Of a stretch of 64,000 nt of DNA, positions 6,740-15,292 are shown piece by piece. This DNA comes from Cellulosimicrobium terreum (GTDB taxonomy: Bacteria; Actinomycetota; Actinomycetes; Actinomycetales; Cellulomonadaceae). Every line of letters starts with the position of its first letter. Within the stretch, counting starts at the first letter, position 1. The stretch lies in NCBI GenBank assembly GCA_014803435.1, contig JACYFD010000004.1, forward strand, positions 248,001 to 312,000, read 5' to 3'. The position numbers were made by a program, and so were the translations under genes. The notes beneath the pieces are model-generated. The model made no database searches. It saw only the letters and a program-made list of their open reading frames with translations, and was not told the origin of the DNA.

Positions 6740-8152
6740 TCAGGGTGCCGGGGTCCGCCACGGGAGCGGGGGGAGCTCCGGCGGTGGGCCGGCGGAGCCC
6801 GGTGAGCACAGGGGCCAGCGTTCGCCGAACGCCCGCAGCGCGATCGAGCCGAGCACCGCGGCGACGAGGGACCCCGCGAGGATGCCGATCTTCGCCTGCT
6901 CGACCATCACCTCGTCGTCGAAGGCGAGCTCGGCGATGAAGAGCGAGATGGTGAAGCCGATGCCGGCGAGAGTCGCCCCGCCGAGCAGGTGCGAGTACCG
7001 GACCCGGCCGGGGAGGTCGCCCAGACCGAGGCGCAGGGCGAGCGCGGAGGCGCCGAAGATGCCGATCGCGTTGCCCGCGACGAGGGCCACCGCGACGCCG
7101 ATGGTCAGCGGTGACGTGGCCGCGGCGCGCAACGACTCGGCGTCGAGCTGCACCCCGGCGTTCGCGAGGCCGAACACGGGCACGACGAGGTAGGCGCTCC
7201 ACGGGTGCAGCACGCGCTGCAGCCGTTCGCTCGGGGCGACCGCCGCTCGTGCGGCCAGCTCCGTGAGGTGCTCGCGCTCCGCGGTCGTCTCCTGGGCGAG
7301 CCGCTTGGCGTACCTCGGGACGACCGCGACGTCGTCGGGCCGCGCCGAGCGGGAAGGTACGAGGAGCCCGACGAGCACGCCCGCGAGGGTCGCGTGCACG
7401 CCCGACGCGTACACGGCTCCCCACAGCGCGACCCCGACGAGCACGTACGGCGCGAGCCGCCACACCCCGAGCCAGCGCAGGACGACGATCGCGACGACGA
7501 GGACGGCCGCGACGACGAGGCCGGGCAGCCACACGGCGTCGGTGTAGAACAGGGCCATGACCGTGATGGCGCCGATGTCGTCCACCACGGCGAGCGTGAG
7601 CAGGAAGAGGCGCAGCTGGTCCGGGCAGCGCGGGCCGAACAGCGCGAGGATGCCGACGAGGAACGCGGTGTCGGTCGACATGACGACGCCCCACCCGTGC
7701 TGGGCGGGCGTCCCGGCGTTGAACGCCAGGTAGATCAGCGCCGGCACGACGAGCCCGCCGAGCGCGCCGAGCGCAGGGACGGCGACGCTGCGCCTGTTGC
7801 GCAGCTCGCCGCTCGTGACCTCACGGTTGATCTCGAGGCCGATGACGAGGAAGAAGACGGCCATGGCGGCGTCGTTCACCCAGTGGTGCAGGTCCATCTC
7901 GAACGTCCACGGTCCGACGTGCCATCCGGCCGTCGCCGACCACAGGGCGTCGTACGCGGGCGACCAGGGGGAGTTGGCCCAGACGAGCGCGGCGACGGTC
8001 GCGACCAGGAGCAGGACGGCGCCGCCGGCCTCGGTCGCCAGGAACGAGCGCAGCGAGGGGGCGACCGGTCGCAGCTGGACACGGAGCGGGGGTCCTGGTC
8101 GTGCGGGTACCTGCACGGGTGGGCGGGCGGACAGCGGGAGAGGTTCGGGCAC
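6740..8152 (-). CDS. nhaA: Na+/H+ antiporter NhaA (copy 1)
   Basis: Membrane antiporter of 470 residues exchanging Na+ for protons. About twelve hydrophobic segments; NhaA hallmarks are FFLVIGLEINREVTSGELRN, the segment with STDTAFLVGILALFG, and the ion-site pair in LTLAVVDDIGAI. The C-terminus carries GIGFTISLFIAELAF. The N-terminus is extended by about 30 Pro/Arg-rich residues. GTG 8152 follows GGAGG closely. A second, divergent NhaA is at 52369-53709. Confidence 0.95.
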   Translation of the reverse strand: MPEPLPLSARPPVQVPARPGPPLRVQLRPVAPSLRSFLATEAGGAVLLLVATVAALVWANSPWSPAYDALWSATAGWHVGPWTFEMDLHHWVNDAAMAVFFLVIGLEINREVTSGELRNRRSVAVPALGALGGLVVPALIYLAFNAGTPAQHGWGVVMSTDTAFLVGILALFGPRCPDQLRLFLLTLAVVDDIGAITVMALFYTDAVWLPGLVVAAVLVVAIVVLRWLGVWRLAPYVLVGVALWGAVYASGVHATLAGVLVGLLVPSRSARPDDVAVVPRYAKRLAQETTAEREHLTELAARAAVAPSERLQRVLHPWSAYLVVPVFGLANAGVQLDAESLRAAATSPLTIGVAVALVAGNAIGIFGASALALRLGLGDLPGRVRYSHLLGGATLAGIGFTISLFIAELAFDDEVMVEQAKIGILAGSLVAAVLGSIALRAFGERWPLCSPGSAGPPPELPPLPWRTPAP

Positions 8153-8247
8153 GGGGCCTCCGGACGCGCGGGCGGTTCTGCCGGGTCAACTCTCGCGGGC
8201 GCCGGTTCCTTCCGCAACGGGCGATCGACCGCGTGATTCAGCCCTGC

Positions 8248-8265
8248 TGTTCACATCGTGGAACA
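8248..8265. promoter_or_regulatory. Inverted repeat TGTTC-N8-GAACA, possible operator
   Basis: Perfect 5-8-5 inverted repeat in the intergenic region between nhaA and guanine deaminase, 15 bases upstream of the proposed -35 box. An overlapping GGAA-N6-TTCC lies at 8260-8273. The spacing resembles IclR-type sites. The binding protein is unknown, and the site could serve either divergent gene. Confidence 0.4.
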
Positions 8266-8280
8266 AGTCTTCCGAAATGC

Positions 8281-8309
8281 TTGTGCTCCACGTCACGTCG
8301 GAGTAGCGT
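8281..8309 (+). promoter_or_regulatory. Candidate promoter of the guanine deaminase-permease operon
   Basis: TTGTGC, 17-base spacer, TAGCGT. The -10 keeps the T1, A2 and T6 positions; the -35 has the leading TTG. A start near 8316 would give a leader of about 188 nucleotides. Confidence 0.45.
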
Positions 8310-8315
8310 CACGAC

Positions 8316-8503
8316 TGCCAACGGCGGGCCCGGGCCGAGCGAGAGCTCGGTGGTCGACGCGATCGACCCGACACCGGTAGCTACCAACCAGGCGGAGTAC
8401 TGACAACTCGCCTGCAGCGGCCCGCCGGCCGTCCCGCCTCGACGTCGAGAACGGGACCCACGGTCGGGGCACCGGGTCGCTGCCCGAACCGTGGAGACTC
8501 ACC
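8316..8503 (+). promoter_or_regulatory. Structured 5' leader of guanine deaminase; riboswitch-like
   Basis: Five consecutive hairpins can be drawn: CCGAGC/GCTCGG with a GAGA tetraloop (8335-8350); GGTCGA/TCGACC (8352-8368); a 9-bp stem with one bulge (8389-8414); GTCCCG/CGGGAC with inner CTCGA/TCGAG (8431-8457); and a 12-of-14 stem at 8458-8494 that starts where the fourth ends. The 3' arm of the last hairpin overlaps the ribosome binding site GGAG (8493-8496), seven bases before ATG 8504, so folding could block translation. I do not recognise a known riboswitch class. Confidence 0.5.
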
Positions 8504-9037
8504 ATGGACCCTATTGCCGGGGACACGCTTGCCGTGGAAGTAGCACACCTGGACCGAGCCGTCGCCCTCGCGGTCGACTCGGTCGCCAACGCCGGAGGTC
8601 CGTTCGGCGCCATCATCGTGACGGCGGACGGACAGGTCTTCGAGGGGAACAACCGGGTCACGCAGGACAACGACCCGACCGCGCACGCCGAGGTCACCGC
8701 GATCCGTCGCGCGTGCGCCGCGCTCGGCACGTTCGACCTGTCGGGCGCGACGCTCTACTCGAGCTGCGAGCCCTGCCCCATGTGCCTGTCGTCCGCCCTG
8801 TGGGCGCGCGTCGGCACCGTCGCGTTCGCCGCGGACCGTCACGACGCCGCGACCGCCGGTTTCGACGACGCCGCGTTCTACGCGTTCGTCACCGCTCACC
8901 TGGGGGAATCGACAGTGGACCCGGTGCCGCGCCCCGGTAGTGCAGCGCCGGTCATGCAGGTCGTCCACTCGCGCAACGCCACGAGCGTCGCGCCGTTCGA
9001 CGCGTGGCGAGTCCTGTCGACCCGGATCGAGTACTGA
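8504..9037 (+). CDS. guaD: Nucleoside/guanine deaminase
   Basis: Cytosolic zinc deaminase of the CDA fold, 177 residues. Zinc ligands are in PTAHAEVTAIRRAC (His about 60, Glu as proton shuttle) and SSCEPCPMC (about 85-92). The length and the 3' neighbour, a purine permease, favour guanine deaminase (guanine to xanthine) over tRNA adenosine deaminase. Xanthine would feed the dehydrogenase encoded downstream. ATG 8504 has GGAG seven bases upstream. Translation may be gated by the leader hairpin. Confidence 0.85.
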   Translation: MDPIAGDTLAVEVAHLDRAVALAVDSVANAGGPFGAIIVTADGQVFEGNNRVTQDNDPTAHAEVTAIRRACAALGTFDLSGATLYSSCEPCPMCLSSALWARVGTVAFAADRHDAATAGFDDAAFYAFVTAHLGESTVDPVPRPGSAAPVMQVVHSRNATSVAPFDAWRVLSTRIEY

Positions 9038-9084: not shown

Positions 9085-10581
9085 GTGACCCTCCTCGGCA
9101 CCCGGCGGGACACCGCCGAGAACGACGACGCGGGCGGCTCGAACGGCGCCTCCACCCCCTCGCGCCTCGACCGCTTCTTCCAGATCACCGCGCGCGGCTC
9201 CACGACGGGCCGCGAGCTCCGCGGCGGCCTGGTGACCTTCTTCGCGATGGCGTACATCGTCATCCTCAACCCCCTCATCCTCGGCGGCACGAGCGCCGAG
9301 AACGCCCCTGTCGACGTCGCGGGCGGCTGGCTCGCCACCGCGCAGGTCGGGGCCGTGACCGGGCTCGCCGCCGGCGTCCTGACGATCCTGTTCGGCATGG
9401 TGGCGAACCTCCCGTTCGCGCTCGCGGCCGGTCTCGGCATCAACTCGTTCCTCGCGGTCGCCGTCATCGGCGACGTCACGTGGCCCGAGGCGATGGGCCT
9501 CGTCCTCATCAACGGCCTGCTCATCGTGCTGCTCGCGGTGACGGGTGCGCGGTCGGCGATCTTCAACGCCGTGCCGCGTCAGCTCAAGGCGGCGATCACG
9601 GTCGGCATCGGCCTGTTCATCGCGTTCATCGGGTTCGTGGACTCGGGCTTCGTCACCCGCACGCCCGGCGGGCCCCCGGTCCAGCTGGGCGACGGCGGCT
9701 CGATCACGACGGTCCCGACGCTCGTGTTCGTCGTCGGCCTGCTCGTCATGGGGATCCTCGTGGCCCGCAAGGTCAAGGGCGGGCTGCTCATCGGCCTCGT
9801 CGCGACCACCGTGCTCGCGATCGTGGCCGAGGCGGTGCTGCACCTCGGCCCCGCGTCCGAGGACAACCCGGGCGGCTGGCACCTGACCGTGCCGGAGCTG
9901 CCGAGCTCGCTCGCGTCCGTCCCCGACCTGAGCCTGCTGGGGCAGTTCTCCTTCGGCGCGTTCGACCGCATCGGAGCGCTCGCCGCGACGATGCTCGTGT
10001 TCACGCTGTTCTTCACGAACTTCTTCGACGCCATGGGCACGATGACGGGTCTCGCGAAGCAGGGCGGGCTCGCCGACGCCGACGGCAACTTCCCGCGCAT
10101 CAAGTCGGCGCTGGTCGTGGAGGGCGTGGGCGCGGTCGTCGGCGGCGGGACGTCGTCGTCGTCGAACACGGTGTTCGTGGACTCCGCCGCAGGTGTCGGC
10201 GAGGGGGCCCGGACGGGCCTCGCGTCGGTCGTGACCGGCGGGCTGTTCCTCGTGGCGATGTTCCTCACGCCGCTCACCGCCGTCGTCCCGATGGAGGTCG
10301 CGAGCGCCGTCCTCGTCGTCGTCGGCGCGATGATGATGCGCGAGATCAAGGAGATCGACTTCAGCGACTTCTCCGTCGCGCTGCCGGTCTTCCTCACGGT
10401 CGTCACGATGCCGCTCACGTACTCGATCGCGAACGGGATCGGCATCGGGTTCGTCACCTGGGTCCTGCTGCGCACCGCGTGCGGGAAGGCCCGTGAGGTC
10501 CACCCCCTGCTGTGGGTGGTCGCGGCGGGCTTCCTCGTGTACTTCGTGCGCGGTCCTCTGACCGCGGTCGTGGGAGGCTGA
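9085..10581 (+). CDS. NCS2-family purine permease (AzgA/PbuG type)
   Basis: Membrane importer for hypoxanthine, guanine or adenine; 498 residues and about 12-14 hydrophobic segments. Family landmarks are GGLVTFFAMAYIVILNPLIL near the start, AAGLGINSFLA, FFTNFFDAMGTMTGLA and the conserved GGTSSSSNTVFVDSAAGVGEGARTG region. It lies 47 bases after guanine deaminase on the same strand, probably the same transcript. GTG 9085 is chosen because AAGGA lies ten bases upstream; the frame is open earlier, but that part overlaps the deaminase. Confidence 0.92.
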   Translation: MTLLGTRRDTAENDDAGGSNGASTPSRLDRFFQITARGSTTGRELRGGLVTFFAMAYIVILNPLILGGTSAENAPVDVAGGWLATAQVGAVTGLAAGVLTILFGMVANLPFALAAGLGINSFLAVAVIGDVTWPEAMGLVLINGLLIVLLAVTGARSAIFNAVPRQLKAAITVGIGLFIAFIGFVDSGFVTRTPGGPPVQLGDGGSITTVPTLVFVVGLLVMGILVARKVKGGLLIGLVATTVLAIVAEAVLHLGPASEDNPGGWHLTVPELPSSLASVPDLSLLGQFSFGAFDRIGALAATMLVFTLFFTNFFDAMGTMTGLAKQGGLADADGNFPRIKSALVVEGVGAVVGGGTSSSSNTVFVDSAAGVGEGARTGLASVVTGGLFLVAMFLTPLTAVVPMEVASAVLVVVGAMMMREIKEIDFSDFSVALPVFLTVVTMPLTYSIANGIGIGFVTWVLLRTACGKAREVHPLLWVVAAGFLVYFVRGPLTAVVGG

Positions 10582-10673: not shown

Positions 10674-11960
10674 ATGGGCGGGACGACCCGCGTGAGCGTC
10701 GACCAGCACCGGTCCGACGTCGCGGCGCTGCTCGCACCGCTCGTCGCTGCTGCCCGACGGCGCACCCGCACCGAGGAGGTCGACCTCGCCGACGCGCTGG
10801 GCCGGGTCCTCGCGGGCGACCTCACGGCTCCCGTCGCCGTCCCGCTCTTCCGCAACTCCCAGATGGACGGGTTCGCGGTGCGCGCGCGGGACGTGGCCGG
10901 AGCGCGTGCGGGCGCGCCCGCACGGCTGACGGTCGGGGGAGAGATCCCGGCCGCGCCGGGCGTCCCGGCGCCGCTCGCGCCCGGGACCGCCGCACGCATC
11001 ATGACCGGCGCGCCCGTGCCCGACGGCGCGGACGCCGTCGTGCCGGTGGAGGACACCGCCGCGGGCACGTTCGCACCGGCCGGCGATGCGGCGGACGCGG
11101 CCGGCGCCGCCGCGGCCTCCGAGGTGGACGTCCTGGTGCCGCGCACGGCGGGGGAGTTCGTGCGCGAGGCAGGCTCCGACGTCCGCGCCGGGGACGTGCT
11201 CCTGCCCGACGGCGTCGTCCTCGCCCCGCACCACGTGGCGGCTGTGGCGGCGTGCGGGGTGGCCCGCGTCAGCGTGCTCGTGCGACCACGCGTCGCCGTC
11301 GTGTCGACCGGATCGGAGCTCGTCGGTCCGGGCGAGGTGCCCGGTCCGGGCCAGGTCTTCGATGCCAACGCCGACGCCCTGGGTGCCGCGGTGCGGCGTG
11401 CCGGCGGCGAGGTGGTGCTCACGGCGCGCTGCGGCGACGACGCCGGACGGTTCGCCGCCGTGCTCGCCGAGGCCGCGGCGACGTCGGACCTCGTCCTCAC
11501 GTCGGGTGGCGTCTCGCAGGGCGCCTACGAGGTGGTGAAGGACGTGCTGTCGGCGGGCGCGCCCGGGGGTGGGGTCACGTTCCGGTCCGTGGCGATGCAG
11601 CCCGGGGGGCCGCAGGGGCTCGGCACCGTGCACGGCACTCCCGTCCTGACGTTCCCGGGCAACCCGGTGAGCGCGCAGGTGTCGTTCGTCGTCTTCCTGC
11701 GCGAGCAGCTCGAACGGGCCGCCGGTCGAGCGGGGGAGCGGCGCGTGCGTCGTGCACGCGTGCTCGACGCCGGGTCCTCGCCGCCGGGCAGGCGCCAGCT
11801 GTTGCGGGGCGCGACCGGCCCGGAGGGTGTCGTGCGGGTGGTCGGCGGGCCGGGGTCGCACCTCGTGGCGTCCATGGCCCGCGCGGACGTGCTCGTCGAC
11901 GTCCCCGCCGACGTGACAGGGTGGGACGCCGGTACCGAGCTGGAGGTGTGGGAGCTGTGA
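10674..11960 (+). CDS. moeA: Molybdopterin molybdenumtransferase MoeA
   Basis: Inserts molybdate into adenylylated molybdopterin in the last step of Moco synthesis; 428 residues. Domain order is normal: N-terminal region with NSQMDGFAVRARD, AARIMTGAPVPDGADAVVPVED, the MPT-binding core with VSTGSELV and LTSGGVSQGAYE, and LTFPGNPVSAQVSF near the end. ATG 10674 has AGGAGG seven bases upstream. It overlaps the start of moaE. Confidence 0.95.
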   Translation: MGGTTRVSVDQHRSDVAALLAPLVAAARRRTRTEEVDLADALGRVLAGDLTAPVAVPLFRNSQMDGFAVRARDVAGARAGAPARLTVGGEIPAAPGVPAPLAPGTAARIMTGAPVPDGADAVVPVEDTAAGTFAPAGDAADAAGAAAASEVDVLVPRTAGEFVREAGSDVRAGDVLLPDGVVLAPHHVAAVAACGVARVSVLVRPRVAVVSTGSELVGPGEVPGPGQVFDANADALGAAVRRAGGEVVLTARCGDDAGRFAAVLAEAAATSDLVLTSGGVSQGAYEVVKDVLSAGAPGGGVTFRSVAMQPGGPQGLGTVHGTPVLTFPGNPVSAQVSFVVFLREQLERAAGRAGERRVRRARVLDAGSSPPGRRQLLRGATGPEGVVRVVGGPGSHLVASMARADVLVDVPADVTGWDAGTELEVWEL

Positions 11961-12382
11961 GCGCTGGTGAGGTGAGCCGCGTGACGACGGACGTCCTGGA
12001 CGTCGCGGTGTCGCAGGCCGTAGAGGACGCCGTGGGCGGCCCGGAGTGCGGTGCGGTCGTGACCTTCCGCGGGGTCGTGCGCGACGTCGACGGCGGGCGC
12101 GGCGTGACGAGCCTCGACTACGAGGCCCACCCCGACGCGACGGCCGTCCTGCGGCGCTGCGTCGAGGCCGTCGAGGCCGAGACCGGCTTGCGCGTCGCCG
12201 CCGTCCACCGGTACGGGACGCTGGTGATCGGCGACGTCGCGCTCGTCGCGTCAGCGGCTGCCGGCCACCGTCGCGAGGCGTTCGAGGCGTGCTCGCTGCT
12301 GGTCGAGCGCATCAAGGCCGAGGTGCCGATCTGGAAGCGGCAGCACTTCACCGACGGCGTGTCGGAGTGGGTCGGCCTCTGA
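11957..12382 (+). CDS. moaE: Molybdopterin synthase catalytic subunit MoaE
   Basis: Large subunit of MPT synthase, which adds sulfur to cyclic pyranopterin monophosphate together with MoaD (not in this window). Conserved features are GAVVTFRGVVRD, LDYEAHPDA, HRYGTLVIGDVAL and the catalytic lysine region VPIWKRQHFTDG. GTG 11957 overlaps the moeA stop (GTGA) and gives 141 residues; in-frame GTGs at 11972 and 11981 are alternatives. Probably co-translated with moeA. Confidence 0.92.
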   Translation: MSAGEVSRVTTDVLDVAVSQAVEDAVGGPECGAVVTFRGVVRDVDGGRGVTSLDYEAHPDATAVLRRCVEAVEAETGLRVAAVHRYGTLVIGDVALVASAAAGHRREAFEACSLLVERIKAEVPIWKRQHFTDGVSEWVGL

Positions 12383-12400
12383 ACGGCCCGGCGCCGGGGT

Positions 12401-12649
12401 TCAGCGTGCCGTGCGACCGTTGTCGAGCAGGAGGCCGATGCCGAGACCGACGGCGGTGCCGAGGACCAGGCCGAACCAGCTGAGCGCGACGGTGCCGACG
12501 ACGGCGCCGACGACGAGACCGAGGACGGTCCTGGTGCCGACGGTCCACGGCGCGGCGTGGGTGTCCTCGCGGTAGATCGGCAGCGAGGAGATGCTGTTGT
12601 CGGGGGTCTCGGCGGTGGGCAGGACGGGGGCGGAGGAGGTCGTCGTCAC
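12401..12649 (-). CDS. Small two-helix membrane protein, unknown function
   Basis: 82 residues: a polar N-terminus of about 35 residues, then two Gly/Val-rich hydrophobic stretches (about 38-55 and 58-75) and a short basic tail. I do not recognise a family. The start looks leaderless: TATCAT (12656-12661, minus strand) is exactly six bases before GTG 12649. An ATG two bases upstream is out of frame. The gene converges on moaE, with 18 bases between the stops. Confidence 0.65.
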   Translation of the reverse strand: MTTTSSAPVLPTAETPDNSISSLPIYREDTHAAPWTVGTRTVLGLVVGAVVGTVALSWFGLVLGTAVGLGIGLLLDNGRTAR

Positions 12650-12696
12650 ATGACCATGATAGGGTCCGCGCCGCTCGCTGACCTGGGAGAATGTGT

Positions 12697-12718
12697 CCGG
12701 GTGACCTGGTTCACCCGG
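12697..12718 (-). terminator. Hairpin after moaA
   Basis: Perfect 8-bp stem CCGGGTGA/TCACCCGG with a six-base loop, about 50 bases after the moaA stop codon in the direction of transcription. The only sizeable structure in the gap between moaA and the small membrane gene. Confidence 0.5.
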
Positions 12719-12769
12719 TGACGTGCGACACGGTGCTCGTGCGGCGCCGGTGACCCGGGGACGGAGCGG

Positions 12770-13882
12770 TCAGCCGCCGATCGCGCCCATGCTGCGCGTG
12801 GTCGGTGCGAACGCGTCCGCGGCGACGGGGGTGTCGCTCCCGTGCGCGAGCGGCTTGACCCACATCGCGCCCTGCCAGGCGCGTGCGATCGCGTCGTCGC
12901 GCTCGTCCTCCGTGAGCTCGTCGGAGCGCAGGATCGCGCGCAGGTCGGTCTCGTCGTCGCCGAACAGGCACGAGCGGACCGTGCCCTCGGCGGTCAGGCG
13001 CGTGCGGTCGCACTCGCCGCAGAACGAGCGCGTGACCGACGCGATGATCCCGACGGTCTGCGGGCCGCCGTCGACCAGCCACTCCTCCGCAGGCGCGGAC
13101 GGGTCGTCGCGCCCCACCGCGACCAGATCGAACCGCTCGCCCAGCACCGCGAGCAGGTCCGCCGCGGAGACGAGGTCGTCGCGCGTCCAGCGCCCGTCGG
13201 CGTCGAGCGGCATCTGCTCGATGAAGCGCAGGTGGCAGCCGTGCTCCACCGCCCACGCCAGCAGGTCCGCCGCGCCGGCGAGGGTCTCGGGCATCAGCAC
13301 GGCGTTGAGCTTCACGGGCGCGAGGCCGGTGGCGAGGGCGGCGCGGATCCCGGCGAGGACGTCGGGCAGGCGGTCGCGGCGCGTGAGGCGCGTGAAGTCG
13401 TCACGGTCCACGGAGTCGAGCGAGATGTTCACCCGGTCGAGGCCGGCGGCGACGAGCTCGTGGACGCGCTTGTCCAGACCGATCGCGTTGGTCGTCATCG
13501 AGATCGACACGTCCGGCGCCTCCGCTCGCGACAGGCGCAGGATCTCGGCGAGGTCGCGTCGCACGAGCGGCTCGCCGCCGGTGAACCGCACGTCGGTGAT
13601 GCCGAGACGTCCGACCGCGACGCGGACCAGGCGGGCGATCTCCGGGGCCGTCAGCAGGTTGTCGCGCGCGATCGCGGGCAGCCCCTCGGCCGGCATGCAG
13701 TAGGTGCAGCGCAGCGTGCACTTCTCCGTGATCGAGATGCGCAGGTCCCGGGCCACCCGCCCGTACCGGTCCACGAGGGCGTCCGTCGCCGGACGCCCCA
13801 CGGGCACTCCCGCGGCGTGCGCGGGCCCGCGCTCGCGCGCGTGCCCACGCATCTGGGGGATCCCGAGCGAGACTGCCGTCAT
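12770..13882 (-). CDS. moaA: GTP 3',8-cyclase MoaA
   Basis: Radical-SAM enzyme for the first step of Moco synthesis, 370 residues. The SAM cluster motif is CTLRCTYC near residues 55-62, followed by [14 protein letters not shown]; the second 4Fe-4S site is in [21 protein letters not shown]; the C-terminus ends in the essential Gly-Gly (MGAIGG). The start at 13882 is leaderless: TACCAT (13889-13894, minus) is six bases upstream. It is divergent from xdhC. Confidence 0.95.
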
Positions 13883-13904
13883 GACCCGATGGTAGGCCCG
13901 ACCC

Positions 13905-13934
13905 GTGACGGGCGGCACCCACGCGTGCTAGCGT
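13905..13934 (+). promoter_or_regulatory. Candidate promoter of the xdh operon
   Basis: GTGACG, 18-base spacer, TAGCGT. The -10 hexamer is identical to that proposed for guanine deaminase. The transcript would begin near 13941 and carry a leader of about 165 nucleotides. GGAA half-sites at about 13945-13975 (GGAACTTC, GAAGTGGAAG) could bind a regulator. Confidence 0.4.
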
Positions 13935-13998
13935 GAGATTCGCGGAACGGAACTTCAATTCCGGGAAGTGGAAGTCCAACGGCGGATTCAAGTCCTGT

Positions 13999-14098
13999 GT
14001 TTCCGACGCGTCACAGCCGACGCGGCGCCGGACACGCGGGAGACTCACCGCAAGGGTTCACTGGAAGGACGCCGGTTCGCCGGCACCCTGGCGGAAGC
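13999..14098 (+). promoter_or_regulatory. Candidate Moco riboswitch upstream of xdhC
   Basis: Structured leader of a molybdoenzyme operon. A closing stem can form between GTTTCCG (13999-14005) and CGGAAGC (14092-14098). Inside it, ACTCACCGCAAGGGTTCACTGG is followed by a GCCGG-TTCG-CCGGC hairpin (14071-14084) and CACCCTGGCGGAAGCGAGACC. From memory this resembles the conserved core of the Moco RNA motif (Rfam RF01055), which I cannot verify here. The closing stem contains GGAAG, the xdhC ribosome binding site, ten bases before the ATG, so ligand binding could control translation. Confidence 0.5.
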
Positions 14099-14107
14099 GA
14101 GACCACG

Positions 14108-15292
14108 ATGCTCCACATCGTCGACCAGCTCGCCCCGTGGCTCGGCCCGGGGCAGCTCCCCTGCGCCGTCGCGACGGTCGTGGCGACGTCGGGCTCCGTC
14201 CCGCGCCCCGTGGGCACGGGGATGGCCGTGCGGGCGGACGGTGCGGTGATCGGCAGCCTGTCCGGCGGCTGCGTCGAGGCGGCGGTCCACGCGGCCGCGC
14301 TCGACGCGATCGCCACGGGCGAGTGCCACCGCGAGACGTTCGGCTACAGCGACGACGACGCGTTCGCCGTCGGGCTGAGCTGCGGCGGCACCCTCGACGT
14401 CCACGTCCAGCCCGTCCGGCCCGACGACGCCACCGCGCGCGTGATCGCGACGCTCGCCTCGGCGGGGCGGGCGTCGGGTGGCACGCAGCCCGTGGCCCTC
14501 GTGCGGAGGATCGACGACCACCGGCCGGGCGCCGTCGTGCTCGCGACGGACGCGGACGCGAGCGAGGTCGCCGCCGCGCTGCGCGGCGTCGTCGGCCCGG
14601 GAGCGGTGGACGCGGCAGCCGCCCAGGTGACAGCCGTCCTGCGCGCCGGTGGCGCGGCGAGCGTCCACGCGTCGCACGCGGGACCCGGCACGGACGACCT
14701 GGCGTGCGACGCGACGGAGCCGGTGACGCTGCTCGTCGAGACGCGGCTCCCGGCGCCGAGGTTCCTCGTCTTCGGCGCCAACGACTTCGCGGGGGCGCTC
14801 GTGCGGTCCCTGCGGCTGCTCGGCTACCGCGTGACGCTCGTCGACGCGCGCGAGCTCTTCGCCGACGCGCGCCGCTTCCCCGAGGCCGACGAGGTCGTCG
14901 TCGAGTGGCCCGACCGCTACCTCGCCGCAGAGGCGGCAGCCGGTCGGCTCGACGCCCGCACCGGCGTCGCCGTCCTCACCCACGACGCGAAGTTCGACGT
15001 CCCGCTGCTGCGCCTCGCGCTCGACCTGCCGCTCGCGTACGTGGGGGCGATGGGCTCGCGACGTTCCCACGACCAGCGCGTCCGCGCGCTGCGCGAGGAG
15101 GGGGTGACCGACGTCGGGCTGACGCGGCTGCACTCGCCCATCGGTCTCGACCTCGGTGCCGTCACCCCCGAGGAGGTCGCCGTCTCGATCACCGCGGAGC
15201 TGGTGGCGGCCCGGCACGGACGTCACGACGTCGGGTCGCTGAGCCGGACCGACGGCCCTCTGCACGCACCCACCCCCGAGGAGGCCCGCTGA
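14108..15292 (+). CDS. xdhC: XdhC-family Moco insertion/maturation factor
   Basis: 394-residue protein that protects sulfurated Moco and delivers it to xanthine-dehydrogenase-type enzymes. The N-terminal domain has ATVVATSGSVPRPVGTGMAV and GSLSGGCVEAAV; the C-terminal half is a Rossmann-like domain with FLVFGANDFAGALVRSLRLLGY and YVGAMGSRRSHDQRV..LHSPIGLDLGAVTPEEVAVSI. First gene of the operon, and its stop shares one base with the next start (TGATG). GGAAG lies ten bases upstream of ATG 14108, inside the proposed riboswitch stem. Confidence 0.93.
   Translation: MLHIVDQLAPWLGPGQLPCAVATVVATSGSVPRPVGTGMAVRADGAVIGSLSGGCVEAAVHAAALDAIATGECHRETFGYSDDDAFAVGLSCGGTLDVHVQPVRPDDATARVIATLASAGRASGGTQPVALVRRIDDHRPGAVVLATDADASEVAAALRGVVGPGAVDAAAAQVTAVLRAGGAASVHASHAGPGTDDLACDATEPVTLLVETRLPAPRFLVFGANDFAGALVRSLRLLGYRVTLVDARELFADARRFPEADEVVVEWPDRYLAAEAAAGRLDARTGVAVLTHDAKFDVPLLRLALDLPLAYVGAMGSRRSHDQRVRALREEGVTDVGLTRLHSPIGLDLGAVTPEEVAVSITAELVAARHGRHDVGSLSRTDGPLHAPTPEEAR

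Follow-up and report, generated by a model that had tools for sequence, protein, structure and literature searches.

The window analysed here is a stretch of 64,000 nucleotides (nt) of DNA from Cellulosimicrobium terreum (contig JACYFD010000004.1 of assembly GCA_014803435.1, positions 248,001 to 312,000). It carries guaD, a gene for guanine deaminase, followed by a gene for a purine permease. The subject of this report is the RNA leader of guaD, which occupies 8316-8503 and, as an initial annotation of the sequence had placed it, sits between the promoter-like TTGTGC/TAGCGT and the guaD start at 8504. We report that this leader is conserved, covarying and specific to its genes. We argue that it is probably a translational riboswitch, made of an aptamer and an expression platform, of a class absent from Rfam 15; we call it the guaD-xdh leader. 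The features of the locus are as follows.

8281-8309, plus strand: promoter-like sequence, TTGTGC (8281-8286), 17 nt, TAGCGT (8304-8309), read by eye
8317-8326, plus strand: 5' conserved segment GCCAACGGCG, consensus GYC-NAN-GGCG, from sequence comparison
8327-8329, plus strand: 5' strand of the P2 base, GGC, paired with GCU at 8380-8382 (from 73 core sequences)
8330-8377, plus strand: P2 extension of the genus, with outer CCGG/CCGG (8330-8333/8374-8377), P2a with a GAGA loop (8334-8351) and P2b (8352-8368)
8380-8382, plus strand: 3' strand of the P2 base, GCU
8383-8386, plus strand: junction A-N-C-(U/A), here ACCA
8387-8414, plus strand: ACC(A/G)GG element and P3 hairpin (8389-8394 with 8409-8414)
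8414-8426, plus strand: 3' arm GCAGCGGCCCGCC, predicted to pair with 8323-8330 or, via GCAGCGGCCC, with 8474-8483
8431-8457, plus strand: linker hairpin, from the predicted fold and the genus alignment
8458-8494, plus strand: predicted final hairpin of the window sequence, its 3' strand over the ribosome-site GTGG
8474-8496, plus strand: pre-ribosome-site element, of which 8478-8496 is invariant in 15 genus members
8489-8507, plus strand: predicted start-codon hairpin CCGUGG-AGACUCA-CCAUGG, which takes in the AUG (8504) and part of GGAG (8493-8496)
8504-9037, plus strand: guaD, guanine deaminase, cytidine/deoxycytidylate deaminase fold; the specific name comes from context, the family matches being to deaminases in general
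9085-10581, plus strand: NCS2-type purine permease (Xan_ur_permease)

The leader folds stably. The predicted minimum for 8316-8503 lies at -97.2 kcal/mol (z -3.38), and none of 200 dinucleotide shuffles was equally stable. The fold contains the hairpin with a GAGA tetraloop that the initial annotation had described (8334-8351). Its last two hairpins, 8431-8457 and 8458-8494, abut exactly, and the 3' strand of the final stem covers GTGG of GTGGAG, so that the stem overlaps the ribosome binding site; both points had been made from the sequence. The same description spoke of five consecutive hairpins. The individual hairpins are there, but not as a row, since the predicted stem GGCGGGCC/GGCCCGCC (8323-8330/8419-8426) closes a multibranch that contains the first ones. 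Nor are all of them conserved. The third mini-hairpin, GGTAGCTACC, reads GGCAGCTACC in 12 of the 14 other genus members, and the 5' strand of the final hairpin is not conserved in these 14, whereas its 3' half (8478-8497) is the same in all 15. The linker hairpin varies in sequence and keeps its stem by a compensated change (CCGCCUCC/GGAGGCGG versus CCGUCUCC/GGAGACGG in loci L012 and L013). The conserved core is 8317-8414, comprising the 5' segment, P2, the junction and P3, and not the row of five hairpins.

Within Cellulosimicrobium the leader region was found in 15 of 17 genomes, the window's own included; the other 14 are 77-82% identical over a 271-base query. The two genomes without it, G003 and G014, have no GuaD match at E<=1e-20. 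In the genus alignment the stems are nearly invariant, as is the core as a whole except in hairpin loops, where 1-nt insertions and deletions occur. Because loop lengths vary by single bases, the leader is not a reading frame: these changes shift frames among genus members, and no conserved short frame of the kind used in a leader-peptide attenuator is seen. The sequence CGCUGCCCGAACCGUGGAGA 5' of the start codon is invariant in the 15 genus members, and the base that follows it differs in L009. The first guaD codons (8504-8524) read ATGGACACTCTTGTCGTGGAC in 11 of the 15, the window sequence being one that differs; perhaps the leader structure continues into guaD, or perhaps the species are simply close.

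How far does the leader reach beyond the genus? A covariance model of 15 sequences (R1) was searched against 221 genomes of the host's own family. It found, always upstream of guaD, the leader in five genomes of genus g28 (Isoptericola; E 1.3e-17 to 2.8e-21), in two of genus g36 (E 7.7e-4 and 0.013) and, in shortened form, in another g28 genome (G162, locus L226, E 8.8e-5). The L226 copy is either degenerate or a minimal variant. A further 44 genomes gave only weaker matches, up to E 1, and those with loci that were read were rejected: L052, L060 and L061 by eye, and L054-L057, L059, L062-L067, L069 and L071-L074 for want of a GuaD motif downstream. GuaD itself has 98 matches in 95 of the 221 genomes. 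Short motif strings located the core in 23 of 90 scanned GuaD upstream regions, a scan that left out the 8 weakest matches, printed 15 regions and could miss a strongly diverged form. A scan of all genome contigs for the genus-type P3 gave mostly noise; among the 80 loci listed, four passed a check for the GuaD motif or junction, two from Cellulosimicrobium and two from Isoptericola. A class-wide pattern with this P3 gave 0 of 394, which says little, since the pattern would miss the second family described below too.

A second model (R2, 14 sequences) was searched in 347 genomes of the order. It gave weak, clustered matches in one genus of family f6, which may be Micrococcaceae (Arthrobacter and kin). 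The four that were read (L296-L299) precede guaD; L300-L303 were rejected by eye. The f6 leaders differ in the third stem and in the 3' GGCCCGCC strand, and these differences showed which parts make up the core. The pairing of GGCGGGCC with GGCCCGCC was dropped as an aptamer stem because the first second-family leaders read lack the 3' strand, and we keep it as an alternative pairing of the genus. The pattern GGCGGGC-N6-36-GCTATCTACC occurs in 44 of 168 f6 genomes, compared with 2 of 168 for a reversed-pattern control. By tblastn, 41 of the 44 matches, from nine genera, sit 86-169 nt upstream of guaD. The exceptions are L332, L333 and L334, the first two of which we regard as chance matches of the pattern. 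G471 (L349) was rejected, having neither core nor guaD.

Comparison of the two families gives the core consensus GYC-NAN-GGCG-[P2]-ANC(U/A)-ACC-[P3]. In the second family the segment 5' of GGCG reads GCC-AAA, GUC-UAU, GCC-UAC or GUC-AC. The P2 extension of Cellulosimicrobium is replaced by a plain hairpin both there and in genus g36. The junction in 73 core sequences is ATCT in 55, ACCT in 8, ACCA in 5, ATCA in 3, and AACA and AACT in one each. P3 begins with ACCAGG in 46 and ACCGGG in 27, the only two forms that the search string allowed. Its partner strand is present in the 36 second-family leaders examined, in forms that include CCUGGU, CCGGU and CUGGU; the duplex is worth -5.3 to -14.1 kcal/mol, figures obtained without a shuffle control.

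A model of this core alone (R3) ties the leader to its genes. R3 has 51 positions; its training set was 40 sequences from f6 and g36, with none from Cellulosimicrobium or Isoptericola. A search of 100 f6 genomes yielded 32 matches at E<=0.1, spread over 12 genera; 28 precede guaD and 4 precede xdhA or xdhC. Training sequences, or sequences core-identical to them, make up 23 of the 32. The nine new matches comprise five before guaD, identified by translation (G936, G352, G933, G963 and G927), and four before xdh genes (xdhA in G896 and G953, xdhC in G954 and G352). Pfam supports the xdh identities, as do the best NCBIfam models, the latter with scores under the NCBIfam curated cut-offs. With 32 of 32 R3 matches and 41 of 44 pattern matches, the core shows the consistent association with the pathway genes of one metabolite that is expected of a riboswitch. 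Some genomes carry it twice. In G954 two divergent copies serve guaD and xdhC respectively; G987 (L335) likewise carries a second copy of this type, its gene cut off. Both in L363 (773-983) and in L335, back-to-back leaders share a short intergenic region between divergent guaD and xdhC.

R3 also recovers the window leader from outside its training set: the best match in the 64 kb spans 8314-8398 of the plus strand, with 20.5 bits and E 0.019, the next best having E 0.54. Whole-genome R3 searches under stricter filters did not list the window leader, probably because the P2 insertion peculiar to the genus lowers its score. Outside the two families, R3 found nothing convincing in 149 genomes of the order or in 60 of the class; the weak matches L354, L356, L357 and L359 were rejected on reading. 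The two other genomes of the genus of G352 gave no R3 match at E<=0.1.

The helices of the core covary. The P2 base was counted in 73 of 74 core sequences, L226 failing. Its first pair is C-G in 67, U-A in 4, U-G in one and an unpaired C/A in one (L225); the second is G-C in 70, G-U in 2 and A-U in one; the third is G-U in 70, G-C in 2 and A-U in one. Selection of many of the 73 by an exact pattern over these very bases inflates the conserved counts; model searches supplied the variants. Across seven P2 pairs in a 40-sequence alignment, 20 cells changed on both sides, versus 9.2 in shuffles, with one of the pairs unpaired in 20 of the 40. The corresponding numbers are 16 versus 5.0 in a model-fitted alignment, and three pairs versus 0.8 in an alignment of Cellulosimicrobium, Isoptericola and g36. 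The seven P3 pairs are intact in 14 of 14 sequences, with one position C-G in 11, U-G in 2 and U-A in one. The core thus shows what is expected of a riboswitch aptamer, conserved sequence with covarying helices. A possible 5' hairpin, GCC-NAN-GGC, is doubtful: it shows no convincing covariation, and some members would be left with a 2-nt loop. The initial annotation had proposed a comparison of relatives by covariance model, here run in a modified form; the stems proved conserved, with compensatory changes in P2 and P3. Its view of a riboswitch-like structured leader with a purine link is supported by these changes, by relatives in two families, by possible alternative pairings near the ribosome site and by the copies before xdhA and xdhC.

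How might the core act on translation? In Cellulosimicrobium the segment at 8482-8494, GCCCG-AA-CCGUGG, is predicted to pair with the 5' arm (8318-8329). The 3' arm (8414-8423) can be paired with 8474-8483, a prediction that shares 8482-8483 with the first. The best fold in 7 of 14 own-family leaders places the 5' arm CC(A)ACGG-CGGGC against GCCCG-AA-CCGUGG, taking two ribosome-site bases, and in these seven GCAGCGG or a similar sequence pairs upstream of GCCCG-AA-CCGUGG; the window sequence is not among them. L207 has a G-to-U change in its 3' arm that disrupts one GGCGGGCC/GGCCCGCC pair, and the pre-ribosome-site pairing is kept through the opposite change to G.

In the second family the strand complementary to the pre-ribosome-site segment is the 3' strand of P3. 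We compared all 42 leaders with 200 dinucleotide shuffles each, the complementarity having been seen by eye beforehand. At a shuffle fraction of <=0.05, 25 of the 42 scored, from 8 of 9 genera, where about 2 of 42 would be expected by chance. An earlier version with plain letter shuffles gave 24 of 34; it began with 36 of the 42 leaders, since L321, L323, L325, L326, L335 and L336 were excluded by hand (the first four for wrong ends), and lost two more to short sequence. The potential pairing of core strands with the pre-ribosome-site segment in relatives suggests translational control.

We also folded own-family leaders under constraints that enforce the aptamer base and keep the 5' segment unpaired. 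The start codon of the window leader, predicted to be unpaired with probability 0.99 otherwise, then reaches only 0.30; the corresponding values for L211 are 0.98 and 0.16. The drop exceeds 0.3 in 9 of 12 leaders (L206, L207, L211, L215, L224, L219, L220, L221 and L222). In these models, both families lean towards an OFF switch.

A mechanism along these lines can be proposed. The 5' edge of the core is the probable transcription start. The aptamer would consist of the 5' segment GYC-NAN-GGCG, P2, the junction A-N-C-U/A-A-C-C and P3, with P2 grown in Cellulosimicrobium into a three-way element. In the second family the 3' strand of P3 would alternatively pair with the segment that immediately precedes the ribosome site; in Cellulosimicrobium the 5' arm would play that part by pairing with GCCCG-AA-CCGUGG. 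The folded aptamer would hold these switch strands, leaving the ribosome-site segment free to hide the start region (here CCGUGG/CCAUGG). Because holding the strands frees the segment that hides the start, binding of the ligand would switch OFF guaD and the permease, and xdh too in some species.

What would the ligand be? Gene context makes a purine of the route from guanine through xanthine to urate likely. Xanthine is both the product of guaD and the substrate of xdh, and for that reason it is our first guess, to be followed by guanine, hypoxanthine or urate. We favour, with less assurance than the riboswitch assignment itself, a new class that binds an oxidised purine directly and co-regulates guanine deamination and uptake with xdh in two families. 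One aptamer would serve lineage-specific switch strands, the 5' arm in one family and the 3' strand of P3 in the other. Conservation, the covariation of P2 and P3, the association with genes and the complementarity of the alternative strands are read directly from the sequences; ligand binding, the identity of the ligand and the OFF direction are what we infer.

Several observations weigh against this proposal. Some concern the helices. The four U-A changes at the P2 base are all in xdh copies and may represent few events. Further pair types in P2 are no more frequent than in shuffles, 8 against 8.1 in the 40-sequence alignment (371 of 500 shuffles as high) and 11 against 10.1 in the model-fitted one (184 of 500). 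The 5' segment hardly varies, and any partner strand for it is tentative. L226 keeps P2 intact with P3 and the 3' arm reworked. Others concern the platform. Among second-family leaders, 17 of 42 lack significant alternative pairing, and a single genus supplies 10 of the 25 positives; when the pre-ribosome-site segment is paired directly with the ribosome site, only 7 of 36 leaders do better than letter shuffles. The start-codon result is driven by the assumed barring of the 5' segment. For L223 and L228 the drop in start-codon accessibility is only 0.09, L227 has low values with and without the constraint, and the accessibility of the window GGAG is the same in both states (0.49 and 0.49). The free minimum of the window, with GGCGGGCC and GGCCCGCC paired, is 9.7 kcal/mol better than the aptamer-constrained fold. 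Finally, the relatives are only mildly unusual in stability: own-family leaders (n=23) have a mean z of -1.90, with 11 at <=-2, and second-family leaders (n=42, four of them cut at a wrong start or 5' end) a mean of -1.15, with 6 at <=-2.

Some of these facts would suit a leader that binds a protein and no metabolite. A purine-responsive or general RNA-binding protein on P2, the junction and P3 could control translation; a conserved junction with covarying helices fits a protein site equally well, and the narrow range, two families of one order among the genomes searched, is in keeping with it. Yet the element precedes separate guaD and xdh operons and occurs with two P2 subtypes, and, in the manner of a riboswitch, it has strands that complement the region before the ribosome site. 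We therefore consider a protein-bound leader unlikely, while giving it more weight than the other alternatives. A passive 5' untranslated region, setting a fixed level of translation or mRNA stability with no regulated switching, would account for the modest z-scores across the families and for the few leaders in which direct sequestration beats shuffles, ribosome-site hairpins being common. It leaves unexplained why the junction ANC(U/A)ACC(A/G)GG is conserved across two families, why L229 and L230, GuaD homologues that keep the promoter, lack the element, and why every one of the 32 R3 matches precedes guanine or xanthine genes. This explanation strikes us as improbable.

Might the leader be a diverged purine (guanine/adenine) riboswitch of family RF00167? 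The J2/3 junction of purine riboswitches is U-N-U-C-U-A-C-C. The genes are purine genes, and the leader likewise joins two helices, P2 and P3, by a junction containing UCUACC; its U-A-U-C-U-A-C-C resembles J2/3 of RF00167. In contrast to RF00167, the leader has no J1/2 UAUAA and no room for one, and its P2 and P3 loops are variable, with no visible counterpart of the loop-loop contact. The place equivalent to U51 reads U or A, where a purine riboswitch has an invariant ligand-contacting U; with this position varying, the likeness of the junction was dropped. Nor did RF00167 match at E<=10 on 8150-8600 or at E<=1 in 20 loci. Membership of that family is very doubtful. Least credible of all is a chance fold of GC-rich sequence, or conservation at the level of DNA only: such a region does fold stably regardless of function, but loops that change length while stems are kept, compensatory changes and detection across families at the same genes speak strongly against it.

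The promoter-like TTGTG...TAGCGT is kept across Cellulosimicrobium in the genus alignment; a generic scan found no consensus sigma-70 promoter near the leader. No intrinsic terminator-like site occurs in 8100-8600, so a transcription attenuator is not indicated. The GuaD homologue at L230 has an identical TAGCGT followed, as read by eye, by 6 nt and the guaD ATG, and that at L229 has the promoter and a short leader without the core. Because TAGCGT in L230 sits 6 nt before the ATG, transcription in the window would be expected to start at about 8312-8317, at the 5' edge of the core. At 8282-8297 lies a half-palindrome (TGTG, TATG or TGTT, 8 nt, then CAC or similar) that is CRP/GlxR-like. A loose pattern, without a chance control and with L325 misplaced, puts it just 5' of the -10 element in 57 of the 65 leaders of guaD from the two families; to judge by this motif, transcription may also be controlled. 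The genus also conserves inverted repeats upstream of the promoter at 8249-8277, GTCCACA-N2-GTGGA and TTCTTCCGAAA; they may form an operator between guaD and nhaA, its divergent neighbour. The guaD-permease pair is followed at 10674-15292 by moeA, moaE and moaA (minus strand) and by a gene of xdhC type, a cluster for purine oxidation and the molybdenum cofactor. R3 found no second leader copy before these genes in its search of the 64 kb.

If the leader does bind a purine, it would represent a riboswitch class beyond those listed in Rfam, tied to guanine and xanthine breakdown in actinobacteria. The core is short, about 50 nt, and easy to probe. The comparison of families suggests that one core has been wired to two different expression platforms, and the leader offers a direct route to how these bacteria gauge purine supply.

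No class in Rfam 15 accounts for the leader. The initial annotation had recognised no known purine riboswitch core, and Rfam agrees: Rfam 15 at gathering thresholds gave no match across the window, and ranking by E-value gave nothing credible on 8150-8600 (451 bases) and no relevant match at E<=1 on 20 loci, 17 of them from the second-family list, including L332 and L333. A weak match to BjrC68 (E 0.038, minus strand) was rejected; it covers the window-specific final hairpin. None of the 4227 Rfam families proved relevant, so no model match points to the xanthine-responsive NMT1 motif, whose presence among those families was not checked. We found no description of the leader in the open-licence literature; an earlier report elsewhere is possible. 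Searches of intergenic regions have produced structured-RNA motifs that, like ours, are unvalidated candidate cis-regulatory leaders with ribosome-site pairing (PMC11109978, PMC8632094). The main texts of these two papers contain no occurrence of guanine deaminase, Arthrobacter or Micrococc, and xanthine appears once, in a reference of PMC8632094.

The known system closest in task is the NMT1 motif. As described in PMC7373994, NMT1 is an OFF switch for xanthine and urate, likely translational and acting at the ribosome site, and is reported only in Proteobacteria. Like the guaD-xdh leader, it precedes genes for purine oxidation and deamination; unlike the guaD-xdh leader, it does so with an architecture of its own (PMC7373994).
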